Both the position numbers and the translations under genes were made by a program. 52,015 bases of DNA from Phenylobacterium sp. (GTDB lineage Bacteria; Pseudomonadota; Alphaproteobacteria; Caulobacterales; Caulobacteraceae), in the NCBI RefSeq assembly GCF_030651755.1, contig NZ_JAUSBZ010000044.1:1-52015 (forward strand), written 5' to 3'. Below the pieces are notes generated by a model. The model did not search any database and was not told the DNA's origin. It saw only the letters and a list, made by a program, of their open reading frames with translations. How positions within the stretch are numbered: position 1 is the stretch's first letter; every line of letters starts with the position of its first letter. Below are positions 31,472-32,187 of this stretch, piece by piece.

Positions 31472-32187
<716 letters not shown>

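Follow-up and report, generated by a model that had tools for sequence, protein, structure and literature searches.

What does the long palindrome between the divergent glnK and fasciclin genes do, and which of the two genes does it serve? The region lies in a 52,015-nucleotide stretch of Phenylobacterium sp. DNA, which was analysed as a whole and is referred to here as the window. The features of the region are collected in Table 1.

Table 1 Features of the glnK-fasciclin region, in coordinates of the window.
Feature	Position	Strand	Basis
Divergently transcribed neighbour glnK (PII), an improbable target	31472..31810	-	Gene order
Perfect 12-bp inverted repeat with 4-bp spacer	32075..32102	.	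Sequence read and inverted-repeat listing
Putative core operator TCACG-AACC-CGTGA, two 5-bp half-sites	32082..32095	.	Score of at least 9/10 in 47/70 loci
Putative -35 element (GGCAACC), ECF-sigma-like promoter of the fasciclin gene	32101..32107	+	First two bases shared with the end of the palindrome
Putative -10 element CGTA, 16 bases after GGCAAC	32123..32126	+	Sequence comparison
Fasciclin (FAS1) protein with N-terminal signal-like stretch, probable target	32188..33033	+	Pfam PF02469, E 6.1e-36
Small secreted-type protein, no Pfam family, possibly co-transcribed	33094..33639	+	Proteins with a similar C-terminal motif after the core

A perfect palindrome upstream of the fasciclin gene

The palindrome reads CCAACGATCACG-AACC-CGTGATCGTTGG. 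Its arms (32075-32086 and 32091-32102) are complementary at 12/12 positions around the spacer AACC, and the fasciclin ATG follows at 32188. A sequence-only reading of this DNA had described a 12-bp palindrome with a 4-bp spacer here, and both its coordinates and its letters proved exact. It had also judged the repeat longer than chance would give, which is borne out by 40 order-2 Markov copies of the 52-kb window, searched with spacers of up to 8. Perfect repeats occur in these copies at 0.05 per window for arms of 12 and at 0.025 for arms of 13, and the real window holds three perfect inverted repeats with arms of at least 12 (12, 13 and 17). The longer two, with arms of 17 and 13, lie elsewhere in the window, at 6751-6785 and 47010-47041. 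Between glnK and the palindrome there is a further inverted repeat, GGGCGCCAAA / TTTGGCGCCC, at 31994-32003 / 32051-32060.

The conserved unit is a 14-bp core

Conservation was assessed by a genus-wide DNA search of 101 genomes, which gave matches in 92 and none in 9. Four of the matching genomes (G016, G056, G065 and G076) are outside the locus set, which consists of 90 loci minus one that was too short (L087). The resulting 89 loci come from 88 genomes, one of them the genome of the window; 70 carry a fasciclin gene and 19 do not, several of the latter (L030, L063 and L072) stopping at a contig edge.

When near relatives are aligned, the core of the palindrome stands out as a conserved island amid an otherwise variable stretch, and the glnK-proximal part is conserved too. 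The island is laid out as TCACG-N4-CGTGA (often TCACGARSCCGTGA), followed by GGMAACC, about 16 bases and CGTA. Each locus was scored by its best match to the core motif at a distance of 150-320 bases from the start of glnK, with the motif read backwards as a control. Among the 70 fasciclin loci, the best score is 10/10 in 39, 9/10 in 8 and 6 to 8 in 23, and the backwards motif scores 5 to 7 of 10 everywhere, never more than 7. Footprinting had been proposed as a check on the palindrome, and the core is indeed kept at the same place, at 9/10 or better, in 47/70 genus loci with fasciclin. It also scores at least 9/10 in 5/19 loci without a detected fasciclin gene.

These 47 and 5 loci make up a set of 52 sites, and since the sites were picked for cores of at least 9/10, the invariance of their core columns is partly a product of selection. 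Arms of at least 11 occur in 3/52 sites, the one at 32075-32102 among them. The palindrome does contain a conserved inverted repeat, but what is conserved spans 14 bp and has half-sites of 5 bp, rather than the arms of 12 bp that had drawn attention to it. At the fasciclin sites the central bases are asymmetric, with A common at core position 6 and C at position 9, and a simple symmetric dimer leaves this unexplained. Beyond the core, a stretch of about 130 bases that precedes the start of glnK (31811-31960) is near-identical across several species. A promoter alone would not be expected to show so much identity; the stretch may hold a leader, or the reading frame may extend further at its N-terminal end.

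Copies of the core across the family

The exact core occurs four times in the home genome, against one match for the control. The three further copies lie near small exported proteins: DUF4142 (L129), DUF4168 (L130) and a 90-aa lipoprotein with no Pfam family (L128). Across 44 family genomes there are 192 exact cores and 28 control matches, with 61 vs 6 in 14 genomes and 131 vs 22 in a further 30, where 7/22 control matches come from one genome. Because some of the 44 genomes were chosen for carrying a composite pattern (the core plus an ECF-like promoter), the fairer figure is that for one genome per other genus, with 79 exact cores against 13 control matches in 20 genomes. Family genomes counted individually hold between 0 and 8 exact cores. 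Elsewhere in the class, 190 genomes from outside the family gave 366 exact cores against 191 control matches (medians 1 and 1), so that part of the excess may reflect composition. The excess is strong within the family, and a weak one extends more widely. One genome from another order (G467) has 38 exact cores and one control match, with none in the one 20-kb stretch of it that was examined.

The surroundings of the exact cores were compared at 117 distinct loci, taken from the fetched part of the 61 + 131 exact sites after loci with identical flanks had been removed. Genes were called with a purpose-written codon-usage script, not a standard gene finder, and export was scored by a crude signal-peptide and lipobox rule. 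Although coding regions make up 80.8% of the sequence fetched, 104/117 loci are intergenic, and 13/117 lie in coding sequence. An exported score is reached by 64/113 genes that start within 160 nt of a core and by 71/218 other genes of the same loci (Fisher p 2e-5, in counts where orthologous loci are not independent). At 87 of the 104 intergenic sites a gene begins within 160 nt of the core; 63 of these sites precede an exported-like gene and 24 precede none. At the other 17, no gene begins this close. The target gene is ambiguous at many sites because the core lies between divergent genes.

Several families recur downstream of the core, namely DUF4142, DUF4168, YceI, DUF1223, 3D, OmpA-like and small lipoprotein; Pfam was run on one representative each of the first six. 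In a tally of 72 neighbour proteins, for which 25 of 61 families were listed, those listed include DUF465 (5), DUF1223, DUF4349 and PAP2 (3 each), and Transglycosylase, fasciclin, DUF2459 and 3D (2 each). Ribonucleotide reductase, a non-envelope family, accounts for 5/72 among those listed and faces PAP2 in three loci, and further non-envelope neighbours occur beside exact cores. The genome search suggested by the sequence-only reading has thus found copies that are mostly intergenic and often before envelope genes. The idea of a regulator-type site is supported, but the core is not private to the glnK-fasciclin region.

Cores with one mismatch occur at 45 places in the home genome, and because 27 of these lie inside genes (7/11 and 20/34), this class is mostly noise. 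Two of its members are suggestive: one lies 72 nt upstream of a second FAS1 protein (L362, G000:C151) and the other 38 nt upstream of EipA, envelope integrity protein A (L359, G000:C142).

Comparison with described regulators

No description of TCACG-N4-CGTGA was found in the accessible text of the open-access literature searched; the McGrath 2007 paper on Caulobacter promoter motifs was outside this search. The accessible part of PMC12864828 likewise yielded nothing pertinent. Four known sites were compared with the palindrome by eye, each in the form given in the available portion of its source. ChvI, which has an envelope regulon in Caulobacter, resembles the present case in having sites before envelope genes, probably in the same family, and its motif TTGC-N3-GCAA (PMC9731502) is not matched by 32075-32102. 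CenR also has an envelope regulon and acts on envelope genes in alphaproteobacteria, with a direct repeat, TGA-N8-TGA (PMC9275681), as opposed to the inverted repeat of the core. HigX, a membrane-associated envelope regulator of Caulobacter, shares with the core an inverted-repeat site and envelope targets, but its site, ATGTTASC-GSTACCAT (PMC13384398), has no spacer and differs from the palindrome. The stationary-phase regulator SpdR has a palindromic site as well, and this too is different (CTGCGAC-N5-GTCGCAG; PMC4830024).

The clearest case among the Caulobacter regulators already described is RtrC. It binds a pseudo-palindrome, activates or represses depending on position, and has seldom been found outside Caulobacterales and Rhodospirillales (PMC9648850, in the text available), all of which would suit an operator of the kind considered here. 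However, the targets named in that text are chemotaxis, cyclic-di-GMP, cytochrome oxidase and hfiA rather than this envelope set, and 113 ChIP peaks are reported there against the few exact cores per genome counted here. The comparison is one of named targets and not of motif letters, as the RtrC logo is given in a figure (PMC9648850). It is unlikely that the palindrome is the operator of RtrC or of another such regulator.

The neighbours of the core were also searched for a regulator. No regulator gene appears among the families listed (25 of 61) from the 72 neighbour proteins, and the listed neighbours of the exact sites and of the home genome's one-mismatch sites include no convincing recurrent regulator that could be an autoregulated factor gene. 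ECF sigma genes lie beside exact cores at L180 and L256, and the TrcR cell-cycle regulator lies beside the one-mismatch site L365; none of these is consistent. At L180 (genome G051), the exact core has an EcfG-like sigma gene on one side and a small lipoprotein on the other.

Half-sites are kept as sequence rather than as pairs

A palindrome of this length might also act in the transcript, as a stem-loop that serves as terminator, attenuator or stability element. The perfect 12-bp stem and 4-base loop of the home genome fit such a role, the loop is partly conserved (the A at core position 6), and the fifth position outside the core pairs in 25/52 sites where 15.5 would be expected from the columns. 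Against this, the excess at the fourth outer position is smaller (22 vs 16.7), counts at the remaining outer positions depart from expectation by no more than a few, and the positions adjoining the core form no pair in 36/52 sites. The half-sites are kept as sequence rather than as pairs, which a protein dimer on DNA would fit better than an RNA stem. The sequence-only reading had remarked on the lack of a T-run, and there is indeed none; a consensus scan of 31500-32800 made no terminator-like call at the palindrome, and its one hit lies elsewhere, at 32010-31995 (minus strand), and is no more than shuffled sequence gives by chance. An intrinsic terminator, defined by a GC-rich stem with a T-run, was rejected for the palindrome. 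The probable start of the fasciclin transcript, moreover, is downstream of the core. Overall, we regard an RNA element as very unlikely.

A promoter-like element adjoins the core

Next to the core, the sequence GGCAACC-N16-CGTA (32101-32126) is close, though not identical, to the EcfG/SigT consensus GGAAC-N16/17-CGTT. Judged from this element, fasciclin transcription would start at about 32133. A -35/-10 pair, sought with a pattern looser than GGMAACC-N16-CGTA, is recognised 3-6 bases past the core in 30/52 selected sites, with a spacer of 15-17 in 29 of these 30. The pair is directed toward fasciclin and away from glnK, in keeping with the earlier remark that the palindrome lies near the fasciclin promoter. 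The 22 sites that do not fit the pattern include a group with GATCACG...CGTGA and a different downstream sequence. The composite of core and ECF-like promoter is present in 19/101 genus genomes, one in each, always at loci with glnK and fasciclin. In the family it is found in only 29/299 genomes; outside the genus there are 16 such loci, with fasciclin in 14 and glnK in 15.

The placement of the core relative to such elements differs between groups of sites. By eye, the core at the DUF4142 sites lies inside the spacer of GGAAC-N16/17-(A/T)GTT, and other site groups show both placements, upstream of the -35 and within the spacer. A core directly upstream of a -35-like element would be in an activator position, and one within the spacer in a repressor position, as far as this can be judged by eye.

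In Caulobacter, the SigT consensus is GGAAC-N16-CGTT (PMC4287350, in the text available). General stress promoters of the SigT/EcfG type resemble the fasciclin element in their spacing of 16 and in similar letters downstream of the core, and resemble the DUF4142 sites in the GGAAC-N16/17-(A/T)GTT that, by eye, surrounds the core there. They differ in that the fasciclin element has GGMAACC as -35 and CGTA as -10, and the available text of PMC4287350 mentions no palindrome. The ecfG locus of the home genome itself holds GGAACC...CGTT sequences. This likeness and the ecfG-locus sequences would be accounted for if the conserved thing were only an ECF (EcfG/SigT-like) promoter, adjoining a palindrome by chance. 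However, the core is present in the 22/52 sites without a recognised promoter pair and stands before other genes in other surroundings, and we consider this explanation highly improbable.

The several intergenic copies per genome could also belong to a repeat scattered through the genome, or to a site with an architectural role (REP-, CIR- or parS-like), that is intergenic by happenstance. Yet the flanks inspected contain no longer shared unit, many copies stand ahead of genes of the same families from one species to another, and the full 28-mer is unique in its own genome at up to three mismatches, so that a repeat of this kind is scarcely probable. The Caulobacter intergenic repeat (CIR), for example, is a repeated unit with a GANTC methylation site. 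There is no GANTC in 32075-32102, and this type was rejected for that reason together with the uniqueness of the 28-mer and the missing long shared unit.

The fasciclin unit is the probable target

The gene order of rearranged loci bears on the target. In L139 an extra gene separates glnK from the core, and the core stays 5' of fasciclin; in L145 the separating gene is of the DUF486/DMT type; L137 has fasciclin and the core, with glnK absent from the stretch. In five loci where no fasciclin gene was found in the stretch (L063, L065, L074, L145 and L150), small secreted-type proteins follow the core. These proteins share a PDTxENRAxY...GN-like ending with fasciclin and with the protein encoded at 33094-33639. 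Because the core stays with fasciclin or with motif-sharing secreted proteins across rearranged loci, its target is probably the unit of fasciclin and the small secreted protein. In the proteins of 32188-33033 and 33094-33639, the shared C-terminal motif has the fuller form PIPDTxxNRAxxxxPxSxAGKxxxxxGN-like. It is perhaps a sorting or anchoring signal.

That the operator instead serves glnK-amtB, in nitrogen control, is extremely improbable, for although the core lies in the shared divergent region and is present in 5/19 loci with glnK and without detected fasciclin, another gene intervenes between glnK and the core in L139 and L145, L137 has fasciclin and the core with glnK missing from the stretch, the promoter-like element faces away from glnK, and further copies precede envelope genes. 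As a target, glnK was rejected on gene order. Nothing pertinent was found in the available portion of the NtrC preprint (PMC10274813).

A putative operator of a probable envelope regulon

The preferred reading, in which we have considerable confidence, is that the palindrome is a conserved putative operator of a dimeric transcription factor, placed upstream of the fasciclin promoter and belonging to a family-wide envelope regulon. The regulator site suspected in the sequence-only reading gains support from the conservation of the core, from the adjoining promoter-like element and from the copies before envelope genes. Conservation, position and recurrence of the core and the nature of many downstream genes are observed in the genomes compared. 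From their arrangement we infer dimer binding, activation at fasciclin, sigma dependence and one factor for all sites. Membership of the core in a family-wide regulon of envelope type is very probable, to judge from sequence comparison.

In the proposed mechanism, a homodimeric transcription factor would read the inverted half-sites TCACG and CGTGA, 4 bp apart. At fasciclin, the dimer would sit directly upstream of an ECF-sigma-type promoter, with the centre of the core near -45 from the predicted start. There it would most likely be an activator touching the sigma or alpha subunit, and would set how strongly the fasciclin unit is expressed. Elsewhere in the genomes of the family, probably Caulobacteraceae, this factor would control a scattered regulon of proteins that are exported or belong to the cell envelope. 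At some promoters, such as that of DUF4142, the core would overlap the -35/-10 region and the factor would repress; repression is expected at DUF4142 because the core lies inside the GGAAC-N16/17-(A/T)GTT spacer. A dual-acting factor working alongside ECF promoters is proposed because both placements of the core are seen, because the elements resemble the SigT consensus, and because the ecfG locus holds GGAACC...CGTT.

A broader reading stands at even chances. TCACG-N4-CGTGA may mark a regulon that has not been described before and spans the whole family, with Phenylobacterium and perhaps Caulobacter and Brevundimonas among its genera, in which one putative dimeric factor and ECF general-stress promoters together set the levels of envelope proteins, as an envelope-maintenance programme without a known master regulator. 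The set would comprise FAS1, YceI, DUF4142, DUF4168, DUF1223, 3D, OmpA-like, PAP2 and PBP1-type proteins and many small lipoproteins. If this is true, many exported proteins whose function is not known (DUF4142, DUF4168, DUF1223, DUF465, DUF2459 and small lipoproteins) would come under one predicted regulator, and a fasciclin-type adhesion protein may be tied to the sigma system of the stress response. Should laboratory Caulobacter carry the sites as well, a single DNA probe could fish out the regulator.
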